Assembly: GCA_016764895.1 (NCBI GenBank) | Contig: JAESRA010000013.1 | Coordinates: 1 to 41,364, forward strand | DNA length: 41,364 bases | Source of the DNA: Phycisphaerales bacterium | GTDB lineage: Bacteria > Planctomycetota > Phycisphaerae > Phycisphaerales > UBA1924 | Direction: 5' to 3' | Position numbers and translations under genes: made by a program | The notes under the pieces: generated by a model | The model's input: only the letters and a program-made list of their open reading frames with translations | Databases searched by the model: none | Told to the model about the DNA's origin: nothing | In this document: positions 9,253 to 20,850 of the stretch, piece after piece | Position numbering within the stretch: position 1 is the first letter of the stretch | Layout of the letters: each line of letters begins with the position of its first letter

Positions 9253-10593
9253 CTATGGCTTTGGCTTGTAGTCATCGATGGTTTGTGGTGTATTCATTAC
9301 ATCGACCGAGAGGATCTGGGTTACGCCATTGCCTATATCTGGAGTGGTTTTGATTCCGTAGAGCCCGGGAAAGCCGTAGGCTTTGTAGTTGACTGGTGGG
9401 TGAAAGTAGTATGACACAGGGATGACATTGTGCAGGTAGTCGTGTGTGCCGAAGTAGTCCCAGTTTTGCTCGTACACATTTGCCCCTCGCCCGTTGTCTC
9501 TGAGCCGATCGAGATCGATGGGGATCCAGAGTATTTGATCTCGGGCTTTGTCGTAGAGTGCGAATTCGACAATCACGATGATGCGTTCGTCGAGTGTGAT
9601 TTTAATTGAGTTGTCATAGCACACAACCGTTCTTGCGGGCACGCCTGCGGTTCTGAGTACGGCAGTGAGCAGCATGGACATATCGAGCATCGAGGAACCG
9701 GCGGGGTCAAGGGCTACCTGATCTGCTGAGCGTACATTGAACCCGGACCATGATGAGAGCGGGGATGATGAGAAGCCGTTTACGAATGAGCGAATTGCTC
9801 CGATATGAAGCGTTGGTGCCAGTTGTGATTGGCCTCGCTCAACACGGACATAATCGAGTACCTTTCCGGTGAGATATTTGGTCAATGTGACTTGGCTGAT
9901 GGATTTGGGATCATTGCCTTCGGTCCATTGGTCAACGAGCCGGACGAGTTGGTCTTGCCCTTCGGGGTCGATGGGGTCGCTGATGCGATCGATGGTTGGG
10001 GTTAGAAACAGCGTTGCTTCTTCTGGCCAAGTTTGAGGCCAGGGGATTTCTTTGGCGAGTTTTTCATCAAATACGGTGTCGGCGGTCACGATGTGGGAGA
10101 CCTGGGAGAAATACAGATGCCGTGTTCTTGTGTCGCGTTGGTTTGATCGCCACCAGACATACTTGGCGTGCGAATCTGGAGTTTGGAGTATTTCGGGTTC
10201 GGGTGTGTATTGGACATTGTCAATCCGGAGGACTGTTTGGATGTCTTCGTTTGGAGACCAGTAGAACCCGCCTTGGCGGACGATTGGATAGATGTATTCA
10301 AAGTCTTGAATATCCCAGGTCGCGGAGAGTTCTTCTCGAAACCCTGAGTTGTTTCTGTAGTAAATGCCGGCCTGGAGGATGACCTGAGACCTGAGATCCC
10401 ACCGCCAGGCATTCGCATGGCGGAAGTAAGGATTTGATTTCATTGGCGAGACAGCATCAGGATGCGACATGGTCTGAGCGTTGGCGTGCTGCTGACTCAT
10501 AAAACCAGTCGAGGCAATCAATACTGAAATGAAACGCGTGAAAGTTGTTGTTGGCATAATGGTCCCTTCGGTCTGTTGAGCCGGTCTGTTCAA
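9253..10593 (-). CDS. Secreted transglutaminase-like fold protein, probable non-canonical active site
   Basis: Signal-peptide-like MPTTTFTRFISVLIASTGFMSQQHANAQ (internal start near 10557); SSMLDMSMLLTAVLRTAGVPARTVVCYD ... IVEFALYDKARDQILWIPIDLDRL resembles the transglutaminase core. Confidence 0.65.
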   Translation of the reverse strand: MNRPAQQTEGTIMPTTTFTRFISVLIASTGFMSQQHANAQTMSHPDAVSPMKSNPYFRHANAWRWDLRSQVILQAGIYYRNNSGFREELSATWDIQDFEYIYPIVRQGGFYWSPNEDIQTVLRIDNVQYTPEPEILQTPDSHAKYVWWRSNQRDTRTRHLYFSQVSHIVTADTVFDEKLAKEIPWPQTWPEEATLFLTPTIDRISDPIDPEGQDQLVRLVDQWTEGNDPKSISQVTLTKYLTGKVLDYVRVERGQSQLAPTLHIGAIRSFVNGFSSSPLSSWSGFNVRSADQVALDPAGSSMLDMSMLLTAVLRTAGVPARTVVCYDNSIKITLDERIIVIVEFALYDKARDQILWIPIDLDRLRDNGRGANVYEQNWDYFGTHDYLHNVIPVSYYFHPPVNYKAYGFPGLYGIKTTPDIGNGVTQILSVDVMNTPQTIDDYKPKP

Positions 10594-10683: not shown

Positions 10684-12150
10684 TTGACCACCGCACCCTC
10701 AGGCATCGAGATGACACGCGTTGAAAAAGATTCTATGGGCGAGATGACCGTCCCCGCTGATGTACTCTATGGAGCTTCTACACAGCGGGCGGTACTCAAT
10801 TTTCCGGTTTCGGGGCGTCCTGTGCCTGAGACCATGATCCGGGCCTTTGCGATTCTCAAGACGGCGACCGCCAATGCCAATACAAAGCTCGGAAAGCTTC
10901 CTGATGCCAAGCGAGAGCGGATCGTTGGGGCGTGCGATCAGATTCTGGGTGGGCTTGATGAACATGGCGGGATTGAACGCCACTTTCCGATCGACATTTT
11001 CCAGACCGGATCAGGAACCTCGACCAATATGAATGTCAACGAGGTGGTCGCCAACCTGGTGTGCATCGCCAATGGGGTGGCGATCGGATCAAGTAAAGAC
11101 GCTGAGTACCTCAGCGGCGATGCCTCGATCCATCCCAATGACCATGTCAATATGGGCCAATCGAGCAACGATACCTTCCCCACTGCGATGCACATCGCTG
11201 CGGCGATCGGGATCAAAGACCGCTTGCTTCCTGCGGTGCAATCACTCGCCAAAGCCCTTGAAAACAAGGCCAAAGAGTGGGATGATGTGGTCAAAATCGG
11301 GCGGACACACCTGCAAGATGCCACGCCGATCCGGCTTGGGCAGGAGTTTAGTGGGTACGCCTCGCAGATGCGCCATGCTGAGGATCGGCTCAACCGTGCG
11401 CTGGGAACACTGGCCGAACTGGCGATCGGCGGGACGGCAGTCGGAACCGGGATCAACACGCATCCTGATTTCAGCGGGTTGATTGCCAAGGAACTGACCA
11501 CCCGCTGTGGCATTGAGTTTCGCGAGGCCGACAATCATTTTGAGGCCCAGCATGCTAAGGACGGGTATGTGGAGGTTTCGGGGATGCTGCGGACAATCGC
11601 GGTGAGTATGTCCAAGATCGCCAATGACATCCGCTGGTTGGGGTCTGGGCCTCGATGCGGGATTGGTGAGCTCAAGTTGCCTGCGGTGCAGCCTGGATCG
11701 AGCATTATGCCTGGGAAGGTGAATCCGGTGATTTGCGAGGCCGTGGTGATGGCGAGTTGTCAGGTGATGGGGAATGATGTTGCGGTGACTGCTGGCGGGT
11801 TTGGCGGGATTGGGTCGCTTTTGGATTTAAATGTTGCGATGCCGATGATGGCGGCGAATCTGCTGGATTCGATCCAGTTGCTGACCGGGTCATGCACGAT
11901 TTTTGAAGAGAAACTTATCAAGGACCTTGAGCCTGATCGTGAGCGGTGCGGGGAGTTGATTGAGGGCTCGCTTGCGATGTGTACAAGTCTTGTGCCTGTC
12001 ATTGGTTATGATGCTTCTGCCAAGCTTGCGTATGCGGCGTATGAGCAGGGTAAAACCGTACGGGAACTGGCATTGGAGCAGGGTGATTTGGATGCTGAGC
12101 GTCTCAATGAATTGCTGGATCCGGGCTCTATGACCCGTCCGGCTCCCTAA
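10684..12150 (+). CDS. fumC: Class II fumarate hydratase
   Basis: GSGTSTNMNVNEV, GQSSNDTFPTAMHIA, GRTHLQDATPI, GSSIMPGKVNPVICEA; TTG start. Confidence 0.96.
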   Translation: MTTAPSGIEMTRVEKDSMGEMTVPADVLYGASTQRAVLNFPVSGRPVPETMIRAFAILKTATANANTKLGKLPDAKRERIVGACDQILGGLDEHGGIERHFPIDIFQTGSGTSTNMNVNEVVANLVCIANGVAIGSSKDAEYLSGDASIHPNDHVNMGQSSNDTFPTAMHIAAAIGIKDRLLPAVQSLAKALENKAKEWDDVVKIGRTHLQDATPIRLGQEFSGYASQMRHAEDRLNRALGTLAELAIGGTAVGTGINTHPDFSGLIAKELTTRCGIEFREADNHFEAQHAKDGYVEVSGMLRTIAVSMSKIANDIRWLGSGPRCGIGELKLPAVQPGSSIMPGKVNPVICEAVVMASCQVMGNDVAVTAGGFGGIGSLLDLNVAMPMMAANLLDSIQLLTGSCTIFEEKLIKDLEPDRERCGELIEGSLAMCTSLVPVIGYDASAKLAYAAYEQGKTVRELALEQGDLDAERLNELLDPGSMTRPAP

Positions 12151-12420
12151 CGCTGTCGGCGGCCGCCGGCTTTGATTTCCAAAGTCAATTGCGGAACCAG
12201 AGCCCAGTAACCAACGAATAGGAAGCGGCTGCGTGGAGTTCTCCCCTGATGCTCCTGATCGCATAGCGATTGTGGCCTGCTCGACGAGTGGATTGATCCA
12301 CAATTCAAGCAAGAGAATCATGCAATAACTCGCCTACGAGGCTGATTATGCGATATGATGGTGACAACACATAAACCCTCACACACGATGAACCGTGATA
12401 GTCAATAATTGGAGCATTTC

Positions 12421-15400
12421 ATGCGATCTGAAAAGAGTCGATCCACCCTTTCCCGTCCTGTAGCGACCGCCATGATATTTTTGGCGAGTGGTTTGGCGTG
12501 TTCGCTGGCGATGGCCGAGCCTGCTGCTCAGGCTGGGCAACTTGAGAGCGTGCAGGTCAAAGGCCGTGCTGTTCAATCTGTGCAGATTGACAATCTTGAG
12601 GCGGCTACTTCCAAAGGCACTGTGATCAGTGCCAATGGCGTGGTGACTGCGTATTTTTTCAATAAGGATGTTGTCGTCCAGGCAACGGATTGGTCGGCTG
12701 TGCAAGCTGTGATCGGTGGGATGCCTGGCGTGACATTTGGGCGGGCACTTGGCAATCGTGGTCGATTCCATGTGATCGAGACCCCGAGTGTTGGCGTAGC
12801 CTTTGAGGTGCAGAAGGCACTGAGCGGGATTGATGGGGTGATGAGTGTTCAAGTTGACTCCGGGCCGACCAAGAGTGGTCGACAGGGCGAGTTGATGAAC
12901 ACCATGATCGCTAGCCGGGCGATTGCTGCGAGCAATGCAGCATACATGAATGCCAAGGCCAATATCGGGGTTATTCCGGTGGATTCGGGTTCGGATCCGG
13001 CGTCCATCCCTTTATCACAATGGCACTTCTCTAACACCGCTGGTGGGCCTGGGAGCCATGCGAATCCTACTCGCAGTCATGACAACAATATTCTTGAGTC
13101 GATTTACAGCACCGACATGCTCACGGGAACTGGGGTAGTTGTGGGGCTTTCCTCAATCGCTTACAATGTCCACCTTGATGTCAATCACATCGAACTGGTC
13201 AGCCCGACTCGAGACGGCGGCTACCGGGAGGATCTTTCACAACCATTCGATCCCAATCTCACGCTTGATGACGATCCAATCACCGGATTTGCTGGCATTA
13301 TCGCTGCTGAGAGAACCGAGCCACCGGTTGCCAACGATCTCCAGGGTGTCTCGCCGGGCGCGGGTGTCGCGACCATGTTCCGCGGCCCAACCCCTCTGTT
13401 TGAATCGCAGGCGTACGAGTGGAACTGGAACGAGATCGACATCAAAGTCCATGAAATATCCGGCGAATATGATGTGCCGGGTGCTATGTATAACCGGAAT
13501 CGACAGAATGAGTATGTCAGCGATTCGTTTAAAAATTCAATACGGTTTGGGCGAGGCAGACTGGGCACAATCCATATCTTTGGAACGGGCGTGGGCTTCA
13601 ATCTGCTTCCAGACCCATACCGGGATTACACCGATGGTGGCACCGGACCGACCAGTCAGCTATGGGATGTGATTGGGTTGAACCCCAACAAGGTTGGTGT
13701 AAGTCAGTCCAATAGATATTTGACACAAACAGAGGGGGCTGCAGGACCACTACCGGATTTTGCAACTACACCTTTATTCAGAAACTTTTTTCTGCCCCAC
13801 ATTGAACAGTTCTATGTTGGGGGCCAGACTCATCAGTTCCCGCTGGCCAATGATCGCACTTCACTGATTATCCAAACGGTCTCTGAAGATGGCAACAGCA
13901 ACTCACTCGGGGCAATCGGGCCAGGCGTTTTTGCCTCATTCTTTGCCGGGTCATCAAATGATCTTTTCTCATTTGACCAGAGCATCTCTGGGCGAGGAAT
14001 CATGACGATCTCAGGAGAGGGCGACCCTGACAACCCCCTCCCTGCTGAGCCGGGCCCAGGCTTCCTCGCCTCAGCACAGGGATTCTCCGGCGATATGACC
14101 GGTGCCTCGGTGGCGGCCGGGGTTATTGCCCTGATGCTTGAAGCCAATCCGGGTCTGAGAATCCGTGATATTCAGCATATCTTCTTTGAATCGATTCAAG
14201 AAAGCACAAAAATCAGTGCCGTCAAATGGCCAAACTTTGAAAGCCAACGCAACTACTATGGATTCTTTGCTGATCCCAGGGCCGACATTGGGGCTTCATT
14301 AAACGCTTCATTCTGGCAGCTCAACACCGCATTCTACAATAATCCTGACGCGGTGCCACCAGTTGTCAATCAAACGATCCGCCACTCCGATCAGTACGGA
14401 TTTGGTGTTGTCGATGCAAATCTCGCCATTCAAAAAGCCAGGACATGGACTGGTCTGCCTCAGCTTGTTCTTCTGGATTCTGGAATCGTTGGCGATATCA
14501 ATGATGACCAGCAGACGCCAAATCCCGATGATCTGCGGGTGCCGTTCGAAATTGAAGACGCGGAGTGGGATGTCATCATTGATGCCGAGGAAGAAGCCGG
14601 AGACCCGGACCCTACTCCAACCGACGGCGTGAGTATCGATGGGAGTGCCGGTATGATATTCTTTACTGGAGCAGGTTTTTCAATCTGTATCCGTCAAAAT
14701 ATTCTGATTGAAAGCATTGTGCTCGAACTGACCATTGAAGGCGAAGGCAGCAATGATCTGTATATTGAACTTCAAAGCCCGACAGGGACCCGATCAACCC
14801 TGGCATTGCCAACAACACTCAACCCCACAGGGATGTCTCCTGAGACCGATGCCGTCGATCCTCCCGATGAAGGCTTTAACTCGGGCAGATACAACGACAC
14901 CGATTATGCGTACTACCAACACCCATTCCTGACACACAAGTACTGGGGCGAACTCTCAGGCGGTCGCTGGCAGGTCAGGTTTGTCGACCTTGGCCCAGAC
15001 ATCATCAACCCAGAGGGTGTTGAGCCCGGTCCTGCTTCAGTAGTCAATCCGGCAATCTTTCCAAATCCCGGTGCCGATATGATTATTGATCTCGGCGAAA
15101 TCGGGATTCCAGGCGATGCAACCCGATCGGGAAAGACCGTCGTGGCATTCCGCCTCAAAGTCTATGGCACTGAGATTGGTGTTCAACCATTCTTGGGCTG
15201 TCCTCCTGGTGAGACATCATGCCCTGGAGACCTGAACGGTGACGGACGGATTGATCTTACTGATCTTCATCTTTTCTTAGCCTGGTACACGGCAGGTGAT
15301 GCCAGAGCTGACCTGACTGGGGATGGCAATATTGACTTCTCTGATATCCAAGCATACCTTGGCCTGTTCCAGCCGGGGTTCTGTACAACGGGCGATTCGC

Positions 15401-15474
15401 CGTTTACTGGCGGGCGTCCAATCCCAGGGGGCCAAACCCCTTCGGACAACAACCCACCAACCCGTCCAATCTGA
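12421..15474 (+). CDS. Secreted S8/kexin-like protein with P-domain and C-terminal dockerin; likely degenerate catalytic centre
   Basis: Signal peptide; kexin-like DP...QWHF entry, GTGVVVGL, GFAGIIAAE, TGASVAAGVIALMLEANPGLRIRDIQHI; P-domain (IESIVLELTIEGEGSNDLYIELQSPTGTRSTL...GGRWQVRFVD); dockerin DLNGDGRIDLTDLHLFLAWY...DLTGDGNIDFSDIQAYLGLF. Confidence 0.8.
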   Translation: MRSEKSRSTLSRPVATAMIFLASGLACSLAMAEPAAQAGQLESVQVKGRAVQSVQIDNLEAATSKGTVISANGVVTAYFFNKDVVVQATDWSAVQAVIGGMPGVTFGRALGNRGRFHVIETPSVGVAFEVQKALSGIDGVMSVQVDSGPTKSGRQGELMNTMIASRAIAASNAAYMNAKANIGVIPVDSGSDPASIPLSQWHFSNTAGGPGSHANPTRSHDNNILESIYSTDMLTGTGVVVGLSSIAYNVHLDVNHIELVSPTRDGGYREDLSQPFDPNLTLDDDPITGFAGIIAAERTEPPVANDLQGVSPGAGVATMFRGPTPLFESQAYEWNWNEIDIKVHEISGEYDVPGAMYNRNRQNEYVSDSFKNSIRFGRGRLGTIHIFGTGVGFNLLPDPYRDYTDGGTGPTSQLWDVIGLNPNKVGVSQSNRYLTQTEGAAGPLPDFATTPLFRNFFLPHIEQFYVGGQTHQFPLANDRTSLIIQTVSEDGNSNSLGAIGPGVFASFFAGSSNDLFSFDQSISGRGIMTISGEGDPDNPLPAEPGPGFLASAQGFSGDMTGASVAAGVIALMLEANPGLRIRDIQHIFFESIQESTKISAVKWPNFESQRNYYGFFADPRADIGASLNASFWQLNTAFYNNPDAVPPVVNQTIRHSDQYGFGVVDANLAIQKARTWTGLPQLVLLDSGIVGDINDDQQTPNPDDLRVPFEIEDAEWDVIIDAEEEAGDPDPTPTDGVSIDGSAGMIFFTGAGFSICIRQNILIESIVLELTIEGEGSNDLYIELQSPTGTRSTLALPTTLNPTGMSPETDAVDPPDEGFNSGRYNDTDYAYYQHPFLTHKYWGELSGGRWQVRFVDLGPDIINPEGVEPGPASVVNPAIFPNPGADMIIDLGEIGIPGDATRSGKTVVAFRLKVYGTEIGVQPFLGCPPGETSCPGDLNGDGRIDLTDLHLFLAWYTAGDARADLTGDGNIDFSDIQAYLGLFQPGFCTTGDSPFTGGRPIPGGQTPSDNNPPTRPI

Positions 15475-15891: not shown

Positions 15892-17619
15892 TTATGGGCA
15901 TCCTGTCGTGAATGCACTGAGGAATGCTGAGATATCGAAGAAGTCAAAGACCATGTCGCCATTCATGTCGGCTGCTGGGTCTTGCGAGCTGAAGGCCGAG
16001 AGGAATGCGGAGATATCGAAGAAGTCGAGCACTCCGAATGGGGCTGCGAAATCTGCTGCTCCACAGGTTGCGCCGGTGACTTCGCCGATCAGGTTGACGA
16101 TCAGGTCATCGCCTGAGGCGGCCGTACCAAAGAGTGATTCATCGTTGACCGCTTTGAAGGTATAGGTCGCGGCAAATGCCCCGAAAGCCGCGTCTGAGAG
16201 GGTTGCTTGGATGGTTTGGCTGGACTGGGCTGGGATTGATGTGACCGATGAGAAGTCTGTGGTCAACTCGGCGGTGTCGCCAACGGAAGAGATGAACTGG
16301 ACATCCATTGGGGCGCCGGTTGTCAGTTCTGCGATGTTGAAGAACTCGATGTTCTGCAGGGCATCTCCGGTCCCCAGAGCGATGATGCCCAGGTCGATGG
16401 TGATTTCATGGAGATTGCTGCCCGATGCCAGTGAGCCGTCTGATGGGTTGAAGATGTTGATTTGGATGGTGACGATGTCATCGCCGTCGTTGTCGCCGTT
16501 GCCGGCTCCGCCTTGGGTGGTGACATCGAGGTTGTCGATGACGACTTGCTCTACGCTGATCGAAGCGGTGTCAGTTGCCCCCGCTGGCAATGAGATGTTA
16601 AACTGGCTTGAATCGTTGGGTGTGTTCATCGGGAAGGCGTTTGGGTTGCCCCAGACGGAGGTTTCGATGCCTGCTGATGGTGTGACTGTGTAGTAGGTTC
16701 CGTCGCTGCCGTCTTTGTTGATGGTGATGGGGACTGAGCCGAGCGAGTCGCCTACGAGGGCGTTGAACTCGACGGTCATTGCTGAGGAGCCGTCGGCGTT
16801 TGATGCTCCGCCGACCCAGAGGGTGGAGTCGTTGCTTTGGTCAACATAGATGGACCAGACGAACTCTGGGTGATCTACGAATGCGTTTCGGTTGTTGGTA
16901 TAGAAGAATGGGTTGTAGGCGACATCGGACACGGCATGGTTCCGTCGGCGTTCAAAGGTGTCTGGGGCGTCGAGGTAGTGCCATGCGAGCAGGGCGTTGA
17001 GATCACCCATTTGGTTGCCTGAGGGGAATCCGTTGACCAGTGAGAGCCCAAGTGAGGTCCAGCGGGTGTCGGAATAGAAGAGGCTGCGGGCGATGTCGCC
17101 TTTGTCTACATCGCCTGGGAAGTAGTATGTCCCTAGGTTTCCGAAGGAGCCTGTTGTTGAGGCCGTGCCGAATGGTTTGTTGCTTCTTGAGGAGTTAATT
17201 GAGGGGTTGCAGGGGCGGAGTGCGTGTGGATCGCCCAGATTGCTACGGGAGGAGTTTGAGGCGCTGCCGGGCTGCCTGGACTGTGGCCAGACATGTTCAC
17301 GGTTCCATGTGGAGCCTTGATCCCAGACCGCTGAAACTGATGCTCCGTTGTAGACCAAGAGGATATTTCCGATTACATTGGGGTCTTCATCGATTTGTCG
17401 TGACATCACGCGGTAATCGCCATAGGCCCGTTGGATATGCCCTGAGGACATGGCGCTGGTGAGTTGGGATTTGAGGGTTGATCCTGTGCCTGTTGCGCCG
17501 TTGTAGTAGTTTGCGGGCGGATCGAACGGATCGGCTGCGATGGTTGTGCCTGCTGTTGCCAGCAAGAGAAGTATGGTGCACGAGAAAGGACTGGAACTGG
17601 TGACTTTGAATGGTTTCAT
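15892..17619 (-). CDS. Secreted endonuclease I family protein with C-terminal GC-type dockerin-like anchor
   Basis: Signal peptide MKPFKVTSSSPFSCTILLLLATAGTTIAA; STWNREHVWPQS, NLGDPHALRPCNPSINSSRSNKPF, DVDKGDIARSLFY; tail CGAADFAAPFGVLDFFDISAFLSAFSSQDPAADMNGDMVFDFFDISAFLSAFTTGCP. ORF extends to 17943 but start at 17619 is preferred. Confidence 0.88.
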   Translation of the reverse strand: MKPFKVTSSSPFSCTILLLLATAGTTIAADPFDPPANYYNGATGTGSTLKSQLTSAMSSGHIQRAYGDYRVMSRQIDEDPNVIGNILLVYNGASVSAVWDQGSTWNREHVWPQSRQPGSASNSSRSNLGDPHALRPCNPSINSSRSNKPFGTASTTGSFGNLGTYYFPGDVDKGDIARSLFYSDTRWTSLGLSLVNGFPSGNQMGDLNALLAWHYLDAPDTFERRRNHAVSDVAYNPFFYTNNRNAFVDHPEFVWSIYVDQSNDSTLWVGGASNADGSSAMTVEFNALVGDSLGSVPITINKDGSDGTYYTVTPSAGIETSVWGNPNAFPMNTPNDSSQFNISLPAGATDTASISVEQVVIDNLDVTTQGGAGNGDNDGDDIVTIQINIFNPSDGSLASGSNLHEITIDLGIIALGTGDALQNIEFFNIAELTTGAPMDVQFISSVGDTAELTTDFSSVTSIPAQSSQTIQATLSDAAFGAFAATYTFKAVNDESLFGTAASGDDLIVNLIGEVTGATCGAADFAAPFGVLDFFDISAFLSAFSSQDPAADMNGDMVFDFFDISAFLSAFTTGCP

Positions 17620-17919
17620 ACGAATAACTCTCCGCAGTACAGATCGGATGGTTCCGACTGTGTGTTCTGGTCTATGTGTTGAAAGCGAATAGGCAAATGC
17701 CAAATGCCTGTTAGGATACGACTGACCGAACCAGCATACACGACAAACGGCTTTGTTCATCGGAATTAGTCTGGTTTTCTGGCGAATTTTGGCGTTATCG
17801 GGATGCGTCAGGTCTGGCATTTGATCCAGTAAATTAGTAGCACAACACCCATTTGAGTATTTGTACTTGATGTATTTGTATCCGTGTGCGATGCCCAACA
17901 TTCCCCTACTATGGTGTTC

Positions 17920-20850
17920 ATGAATACTGGATGCACACGACATTTTTTAGGTTGGGATCAACCTGCACTCGATAGCGCGGCTCAATGGATTTTTGATCGC
18001 TTCGTCCAGAACTCTGAACTGGATTTGAGTGATGTACATTTGGTGCTTCCCGGCCGAAGGGCTGCCCGGACATTGCTTGGGAATCTTGTGGACCTTTGCG
18101 AGAGCCAAGGCATCGTACTGATCCCTCCGATAACCATGACCCCACTGGAAATTCCAGCGGCGACTATTGGTAGGGCTAGTGAGATCGAAGGTATGGGCGG
18201 GCTTGGCCGGCACGCCTCCAAACTTTCTCGGAAACTCGCTTGGATTCAGGCATTGCAAGACTGTGACCCCAGCATGCTTGCTGAAATTCTTCCGGCCCCG
18301 CCAGAAACCCAGGACCTTGGGCATTGGATTGGGATCGGCGGGTGGATAGCGGGGGTCAGCGATGAACTCTGTGATGCAGGCTTGCGGATGAGCGAGGTTG
18401 CGACTCGTGGGATTCAGATACTTGATGAATCTGAAACGGTCCGATGGGATGCACTTGGCGAAATCCAGAACTCGTATGAACAGATACTGGCTGGGCTCGG
18501 GGTCGTTGATGATCGCTTGGTGACGCTGGACCATGTCTTTCATGATGATGAAACCGTTCGTAGTGGACGCCGATTTATTTGTATCGGCATGCCCGAACTC
18601 GGTTCAACGGCACGGGGCGCGATCGAGCGCGCAGAATGCGAAGTTGATTCGTTGGTCTTTGCGCCTGAATCATTGGCAGAGCGGTTTGATGAGTTTGGAT
18701 GCGTAGTGACGGATCAATGGATCAGGGCGAGCTTGGAAATTGATGAAGGCCGCATCGTCTTTGAAGAGAGCCCTGCGAGCATGTGTGAGCGAGCGATGAC
18801 GCGGCTCGCTCTGCATGGGAGTCGATCAGGAGCTGATGCTTTGGATACTTCTTCATGCGTCATCGGGCTGGCGGATGAATCGTTGATCGGGCCGCTCCGG
18901 CAAATCGCTAGCATGGGCGGGCCCAAACTGGGTATTGAGATTCACGCGCCGATCGGGCGGAGCGCATTGAGCACGCCTCCTGGACAGCTTGTCGAGTTGA
19001 TCCAGGCGTATCTGGGTAATCCGTCGTTTGACACGCTCGCCTTGCTTGCCCGCCATCCTGATATGGAACTTGCTTTGACTGCTGGGCACGCTGAATCTGA
19101 TTCTGATGCACCAAAGCCCAAGGCGTGGTGGCTCACATCGCTTGATCTGATCCGCCAGAATCATGTACTGACCAGCAGCACGGTTGTCCCCAATGGAACC
19201 AAAGCGTCACTAGCCAAAGATGCTGAGTTTGTGGTGCAAACCGTTGCCCAACTCCTTGGGCCGTTGATTCCAAGCCCCGGCGCGGATCTTCCACTTGATG
19301 ATTGGGCTGGCAAACTTTCAAAGACGCTTGAACTGATCTATCTTGATATTGAGCTTGATATCCAATCCGAACATGACCGCTCGACGATCGAGGGGCTTGG
19401 ATCGATCCGTGCGGTTCTTGATGAGATCAGTGATGCCAAGTTGCTTGGGCAGTGCATGCCTGTGACATCGGCGCATACTGCGGTTGCATTGATTTTGGAT
19501 CGGCTTGGCGAAACGATGCTTGCAGAGCCGCTCAATCGTGACGCGATTGAGGCCGTTGGATGGCTCGAACTCCCGCTTGATCCTTCGCCATTGTGTGTGG
19601 TTGTTGGGATGAGCGAGTCATGTGTCCCCGGATCAATAACTCACGATCCGCTCCTTCCGGGTTCGCTTCGTGATGCGCTTGGGATGACCACCAACGAGGA
19701 TCGCTTGGCCCGCGACACTTTCTTGATGGCATCGATTCATGCGTCAAGGGATGCGGTCTTTATGTGCGCTAGGAACGGCGAAAAAAATGATCCCGTCACA
19801 CCCAGTCGCCTTCTTTTACGGGTGTCTGGCGAATCTTTAGCCAAACGCGTCGGGCGGTTTGTTGATCCTTCAGAGGACTGTCCTTCATTGCACTCTTTGG
19901 CGATGGACGCCAAACCTGGGAAGGTCGATCGGTTCAAATCCACACTCCGGGTCTGCGAAGATTTTGTTGTACCGGTATCAATGCGTGTGACGGATTTTGA
20001 TACTTTTCTGAGATCGCCAGCACAATGGTATCTGGAGCGACACTTGGGGCTCGGCGAGATTGACATTGATATACGAGAACTCGGCCCCGCTCAGTTGGGC
20101 ACGCTCATCCATTCGATACTCGATTCATTCGGCAAGGATCCAGCGATGCGGGACCTTGATGATCCTGATGCGATCAATGCTGCCCTTTTACATTTGCTGG
20201 ACCAAGAGACCGTTTCTCAGTATGGGACAAAGCCTGCCGCTGCTGTTATTGTGCAGACCCGGCTCCTTCATTATCGGCTTGGGTGGTTTGCAACTCAGCA
20301 GTCGCAACGAAGACGCGACGGCTGGGCTATCGCCTACACAGAATGGTCGCCCGACAAAGCTGCGCCGCCTTCGATTTTGGTTGATGGCGATCCGATGGAG
20401 TTGCGTGGAAAGATCGACCGGATCGACAGACATGAGGACGGCCGGCTTGCGATAATTGACTACAAAACAGGTAGAATCGTCGATGCTCGCAAGGCTCACC
20501 AGACCAAGGATGCTTGGACGAAGCTTCAACTTCCGCTCTATCGTTTTCTGGTGCGGCAACTTGCCAGCGACCAGGAGATTGTTCTTGGGTATGCGGGTCT
20601 TCCAGCAAATGCAGGTGAAGATGTCTGGCAGTTTGCTGATTGGGATCAGGACGAGCTGAAATCTGCCGACGAGGCCGCGTGTGATGTTGTTCGGAATATC
20701 CGTAAGATGTCAGCCGGGGACAAGGTCGAGATGGGCGATTCTCCGCCGGACAATGGGATTCTCGGATTTTTGACTGGACAACGATTCGATACCGGCGGGA
20801 ACCAATGGATACACGAAGAAGAATCCACCGAGGCGGAGGTGGGCGTATGA
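17920..20850 (+). CDS. addB: AddB-like protein: inactivated helicase-like region plus C-terminal PD-(D/E)XK nuclease
   Basis: LRGKIDRIDRHEDGRLAIIDYKTG nuclease motif; N-terminal LVLPGRRAARTL in place of Walker A; ATGA overlap with addA-like gene; start could be 17911 or 17884. Confidence 0.78.
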   Translation: MNTGCTRHFLGWDQPALDSAAQWIFDRFVQNSELDLSDVHLVLPGRRAARTLLGNLVDLCESQGIVLIPPITMTPLEIPAATIGRASEIEGMGGLGRHASKLSRKLAWIQALQDCDPSMLAEILPAPPETQDLGHWIGIGGWIAGVSDELCDAGLRMSEVATRGIQILDESETVRWDALGEIQNSYEQILAGLGVVDDRLVTLDHVFHDDETVRSGRRFICIGMPELGSTARGAIERAECEVDSLVFAPESLAERFDEFGCVVTDQWIRASLEIDEGRIVFEESPASMCERAMTRLALHGSRSGADALDTSSCVIGLADESLIGPLRQIASMGGPKLGIEIHAPIGRSALSTPPGQLVELIQAYLGNPSFDTLALLARHPDMELALTAGHAESDSDAPKPKAWWLTSLDLIRQNHVLTSSTVVPNGTKASLAKDAEFVVQTVAQLLGPLIPSPGADLPLDDWAGKLSKTLELIYLDIELDIQSEHDRSTIEGLGSIRAVLDEISDAKLLGQCMPVTSAHTAVALILDRLGETMLAEPLNRDAIEAVGWLELPLDPSPLCVVVGMSESCVPGSITHDPLLPGSLRDALGMTTNEDRLARDTFLMASIHASRDAVFMCARNGEKNDPVTPSRLLLRVSGESLAKRVGRFVDPSEDCPSLHSLAMDAKPGKVDRFKSTLRVCEDFVVPVSMRVTDFDTFLRSPAQWYLERHLGLGEIDIDIRELGPAQLGTLIHSILDSFGKDPAMRDLDDPDAINAALLHLLDQETVSQYGTKPAAAVIVQTRLLHYRLGWFATQQSQRRRDGWAIAYTEWSPDKAAPPSILVDGDPMELRGKIDRIDRHEDGRLAIIDYKTGRIVDARKAHQTKDAWTKLQLPLYRFLVRQLASDQEIVLGYAGLPANAGEDVWQFADWDQDELKSADEAACDVVRNIRKMSAGDKVEMGDSPPDNGILGFLTGQRFDTGGNQWIHEEESTEAEVGV

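Follow-up and report, generated by a model that had tools for sequence, protein, structure and literature searches.

The gene at positions 12421 to 15474 of the window, meaning the whole 41,364-nt stretch that was analysed (genome G000, contig C55), probably encodes an exported kexin-type (S8B-like) pseudoprotease that acts by binding, and it appears to be the positional ortholog of a protease which keeps its His, Asn and Ser. Judging from sequence, we give this reading a probability of about 0.72. The homologues of the gene fall into two groups. Group B, 12 members of one genus with the window included, has lost the entire catalytic apparatus. Group A, nine members of the same genus and nine genomes from five other genera (g93, g71, g64, g45 and g79), retains the His, the oxyanion Asn and the Ser (where sequenced) and has an invariant Glu instead of the catalytic Asp.

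Homologues were sought in 60 related genomes and then across the family with a sequence profile. A single homologue, whole or fragmented, is present in each of the other 20 genus genomes (group-A member G011 was recovered in fragments), and the profile search added the nine from the other five genera. Where the source genomes are named, most are Phycisphaerales metagenome-assembled genomes (MAGs). One contig (RHKP01000010.1, L092) is titled "Cyanobacteria bacterium CYA N2_1" and carries the same gene as G080, a member of the window's planctomycete family, so its title looks wrong.

Gene signals and domain layout

The reading frame is uninterrupted on the + strand, from an ATG at 12421 to a stop at 15474, and its product is 1017 aa long. 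The locus, the signals and the domains are as follows:

10684-12150, +: fumC, which anchors the locus on its upstream side in both groups
12354-12359, +: -10-like box TATGAT (leader alignment)
12411-12414, +: ribosome-binding site GGAG, which recurs in homologue leaders
12421-15474, +: whole gene of the putative group-B pseudoprotease, matched by a homologue in each of the 20 other genus genomes
12421-12516, +: signal peptide region, residues 1-32 (hydrophobic, by eye; helix 11-30 in the AlphaFold model)
12538-12870, +: prodomain-like region, residues 40-150 (a confident part of the model, with a fold match to the PC1/3 prodomain)
13003-14460, +: S8 (kexin-type) core lacking catalytic residues, residues about 195-680 (furin, kexin, Foldseek and Pfam comparisons)
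14545-15174, +: P-domain, residues about 709-918 (PF01483; beta-rich and confident in the model)
15220-15378, +: GC-type dockerin, residues 934-986 (NF041540, 3e-12)
15379-15471, +: conserved C-terminal tail (ortholog alignment)

The -10-like box takes the form TATAAT, TATACT or TATGAT and falls in the same column in almost every one of the 19 aligned leaders. Roughly 200 bases 5' of the start codon, at about 12190-12225 in the window, many genomes share another conserved element (CGCAACC, about 14 bases, GCGTAT, plus variants). A terminator scan found no terminator-like site 3' of the stop codon; the earlier note had credited the gene with its own terminator, and the site at 12155-12170 instead follows fumC.

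That note had also read the protein as a proprotein convertase in layout, with a P-domain and a dockerin, and this is borne out by several comparisons. The window protein matches furin in phmmer (3e-5), the group-B profile matches kexin (1.9e-24), and Foldseek with the predicted model matched Aeromonas ASP, furin and kexin at 1e-15 to 1e-12. Among the fold matches is the solved PC1/3 prodomain (TMt 0.69, E 0.02). The P-domain match (PF01483, 4.3e-6, residues 764-857) lies above the Pfam cut-off, and the same domain was detected in 10 of the 11 group-B members scanned. The Pfam Dockerin_1 match to the window protein, at 0.004, is under the family cut-off. The HMM check that the note had proposed succeeded in part: the P-domain was found, and the Pfam Peptidase_S8 threshold was not reached by the window protein itself, although that family does match 9 of the 11 group-B members scanned. 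By descent, group B belongs to the kexin/furin subfamily of S8, given the homology of its core and the P-domain 3' of that core.

AlphaFold models of the window protein and of one group-A protein have mean pLDDT values of 57 and 52, with the S8 core mostly below 50. The usable parts are the prodomain, the P-domain and the dockerin, and the core is too uncertain for superposition on kexin or furin. Because of this low confidence, the catalytic positions below were assigned from sequence profiles. The tail 3' of the dockerin (PGFC...GGRPxPG...DNxPxxRPI) is common to groups A and B and is possibly a sorting or processing signal.

Catalytic positions in the two groups

The positions that matter for catalysis or that distinguish group B are these:

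13153-13155, +: Ser245 at the catalytic Asp position, Glu in group A (alignments; Asn249 in an alternative register)
13171-13188, +: HLDVNH, residues 251-256, with group-B-conserved His251 and Asp253 (ortholog alignment)
13276-13278, +: Pro286 at the catalytic His position (kexin profile and ortholog alignments)
13453-13458, +: Glu345-Ile346 in place of the SW of the SWGP motif (ortholog alignment)
13591-13593, +: Val391 at the oxyanion Asn position (kexin profile and ortholog alignments)
14095-14097, +: Met559 at the catalytic Ser position (furin, kexin profile and ortholog alignments)

Where active kexin/furin enzymes have the Asp-His-Ser triad, the window protein has Ser245 (or Asn249), Pro286 and Met559, and these positions vary across the 12 group-B members. 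The furin, kexin profile and ortholog alignments concur on the replacements, and when the group-B profile is aligned with kexin, the conserved acid is absent in both registers. Within group A and the outgroups, column 245 is Glu in 18 of 18 sequences, column 286 is His (18/18) and column 391 is Asn (18/18), and column 559 is Ser in 17 of 17. The corresponding group-B residues are S/R/A, P/Y/A/N/F/V/S, V/F/T/S/M and M/Q/G/T/L, so the letters filling the vacated positions are freely variable. Ser345-Trp346, present in 18 of 18, is lost in group B, as are A560 and P563 of GTSAAAP, which are likewise conserved in group A. The S8-core columns that are invariant or nearly so in group A and the outgroups yet lost in group B are mainly those of the catalytic site and substrate cleft. 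Lys342 was considered as a group-B-specific residue and dropped, since the outgroups carry it too.

These results agree with the earlier note on the loss of the catalytic Asp and His and on the replacement of the oxyanion Asn by Val, and they correct it on the Ser helix, which it had taken to be kept. The catalytic Ser falls on Met559, and the Ser visible in TGASVAAG, Ser563, lines up with the Pro of GTSAxAP. The note's overall description, a pseudoprotease with P-domain and dockerin, is supported except in the Ser and terminator details, and it now extends to all four catalytic positions plus SWG in 12 species.

Group A is apparently a Glu-His-Ser subtilase and probably a live-like, putative protease. 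When its profile is aligned with furin, the Glu aligns with the furin catalytic Asp (SILD), and the His, Asn and Ser are in place. Across six genera, kexin-like subtilases that are otherwise intact (L046-L053 and L189-L197, from group A and the outgroups) carry the invariant Glu, and they may represent a Ser-His-Glu lineage. Searches of the available papers found nothing relevant on Ser-His-Glu subtilases and no paper on planctomycete S8/P-domain proteins. Among the other S8 proteins of the genus, L056 and L059 carry the canonical Asp-His-Ser, according to a regex survey that was partly readable.

A shared locus, its maintenance and its history

Wherever a genus contig extends far enough to show it, the upstream gene order is fusA, adk, a transglutaminase gene on the - strand, fumC, then the gene; this holds for groups A and B alike, and g93 and g71 share the arrangement. 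The g64 copy also lies close to fumC, though inverted, and those of g45 and g79 are elsewhere. Downstream, genes for an ABC transporter and a secretin-like protein (families named by eye) are common to ten genus genomes of both groups. The product of the neighbour at 9253-10593 (-) is weakly transglutaminase-like and is conserved next to fumC in g1, g93 and g71; that of the neighbour at 15892-17943 (-) is an Endonuclease I protein whose end is dockerin-like. In G017 and G006 (L041, L044), the opposite strand directly downstream encodes a tandem pair of related proteins, each about 600 aa long and, by eye, M14 carboxypeptidase-like. None of the 21 genus genomes has both A and B, and searches of the family's other genera and of 398 genomes of the class found no form B.

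Group B appears to be a pseudoprotease kept under purifying selection, not a decaying gene, as the earlier note had also thought of this long and uninterrupted frame with its accessory domains. None of the homologues in the 20 other genus genomes, those of group B included, is broken by an internal stop. The sole group-B pair with unsaturated dS (G015/G008) has a dN/dS of 0.155, and the other pairs range from 0.076 to 0.172, values which are rough because dS is near saturation. In the S8 core the range is 0.06-0.16, so constraint there is about equal to that on the rest of the protein, and a group-A pair gives 0.06. The absence of catalytic residues and the incompleteness of the MAG (84%) could be taken as signs of a pseudogene or an assembly artefact. 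We consider this scarcely credible, and for group B as a whole the pseudogene reading is refuted: 12 species share the form, dN/dS is low throughout, the domains are retained, the promoter-like box and GGAG are conserved, and synteny matches among independent assemblies. Nor do the orthologs all keep Asp-His-Ser beside a single frameshifted copy, the outcome that would have told against the earlier note, as the 11 other group-B orthologs also lack the machinery, and in the orthologs with His and Ser intact the acid is Glu instead of Asp. Because the dead and live-like forms share a chromosomal position in different, intermingled species, group B looks like a maintained replacement protein.

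The history of the gene conflicts with that of its surroundings. In the protein tree, A and B separate with support of 100/100, and the tree of each segment also parts them (dockerin plus tail, 94/92). In the trees of fusA+adk+fumC, rpoB, the ABC transporter and the secretin-like gene, however, A and B are interleaved: G018 (B) clusters with G009 (A) in the three trees that contain G018 (support 80/82 to 100/99), and G015/G008 (B) are placed with G012, G013 and G016 (A) in the fusA+adk+fumC, rpoB and downstream-gene trees. Approximately unbiased (AU) tests on the protein reject such species-like groupings (p 3e-45 and 6e-5). The live-like A and dead B forms therefore seem to be mutually exclusive alternatives at the locus, which would have arisen through recombination or an old duplication.

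Two histories could produce this pattern. We tentatively suggest that the forms were swapped gene-precisely by recombination near the signal-peptide border, that a non-catalytic (binding) function was selected at the locus, and that group A members are working Ser-His-Glu subtilases; taken together, this combination falls short of even odds. Over the leader and first codons, G018 (B) is 60-73% like G009 (A), with similarity falling to background level past the signal peptide, in a region whose leader tree is weakly supported. The other possible history, which we also hold to be less than probable, is an old tandem A-B duplication with one copy lost per lineage. An AU test rejects A+B as a single clade (p 0.001) and so prefers B branching ahead of the split between the genus and g93, which would date the A/B split before the genus; in addition, donor flanks for a recombinational replacement are not visible. 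Against such a duplication, the AU result may stem from the long B branch, the dockerin-plus-tail tree unites A with B against g93 (99/91), and one would have to reconcile it with the 0 of 21 genus genomes that retain both forms and with the confinement of form B to the genus within the family and class genomes searched.

Proposed function and comparison with known systems

Group B is most likely a secreted binding or scaffold pseudoprotease. The Glu/Asp, His, Asn, Ser and SWG motif would have been replaced while the prodomain, S8 core, P-domain, dockerin and tail were retained. The protein would exit the cell via its signal peptide and fold with a prodomain that it can no longer remove autocatalytically, as in CspC. 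It may then attach to the surface or matrix by its GC-type dockerin, through some partner, and bind rather than cut, using its P-domain or what was once the substrate face. A search for cohesin partners gave no PF00963 match across the 21 genus genomes, and a cellulosome reading, suggested by the presence of a dockerin, was lowered for this reason. The window's genome has 58 further matches to the protein, nearly all to the dockerin, and its genus relatives have up to about 190 first-look candidates in a profile search.

Two other functions were weighed. Group B might keep or have gained another enzymatic activity, with a new site built from His251-x-Asp253-x-x-His256-x-Asp/Glu258 and Ser/Thr560. 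H251 is present in 11 of 11 group-B sequences (Phe in 18 of 18 of group A and the outgroups), D253 is also present in 11 of 11, and position 560 is Ser/Thr in 12 of 12 (Ala in 17 of 17 in group A). We nevertheless think this unlikely, as D253, H256 and D/E258 align with the kexin DDGLDYENEDL that follows the catalytic Asp, a structural S8 stretch, and the free variation at the vacated positions looks like relaxation. Alternatively, the protein might regulate or chaperone an active subtilase in the same cell, for which C. difficile CspC and CspA with CspB are a known precedent (PMC6636752). G000 has four or five further S8 genes that could supply a partner, but these sit on other contigs and B replaces A instead of accompanying it, which makes a regulatory role similarly improbable.

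Kexin/furin (S8B) and Aeromonas sobria ASP have a prodomain, S8 core and P-domain in the identical order, with significant profile and fold matches. Compared with these, group B lacks all catalytic residues and SWG and has a C-terminal GC-type dockerin added, and group A has Glu for Asp. Group A proteins share the locus and domain order of the window protein and differ from it in having the His, Asn and Ser together with the invariant Glu.

By analogy, CspC is the nearest functional precedent. CspC and CspA of C. difficile are bacterial subtilases which have lost triad residues and yet are maintained and functional; CspC has Gly at the Ser position and Thr at the His position, retains the Asp at the third triad position and keeps its prodomain uncut, and both are spore proteins with a jelly-roll insertion that act beside the active CspB (PMC6636752). 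They resemble group B as maintained subtilases with triad losses. Neither is known to have a P-domain, dockerin or signal peptide. A further difference is that CspC and CspA accompany an active relative, whereas group B stands instead of one, and no group-B genome among those of the genus holds an active-like relative of its own type.

The pairing of alternative forms at one locus is the stronger finding, together with the apparent Glu-His-Ser signature of group A. CspA and CspC, the best-known bacterial pseudosubtilases, work alongside an active relative; here, in 12 species, the same locus is occupied by a predicted inactive form in place of such a relative. Groups A and B may therefore serve as a natural pair for asking what roles other than cutting a secreted subtilase can have.
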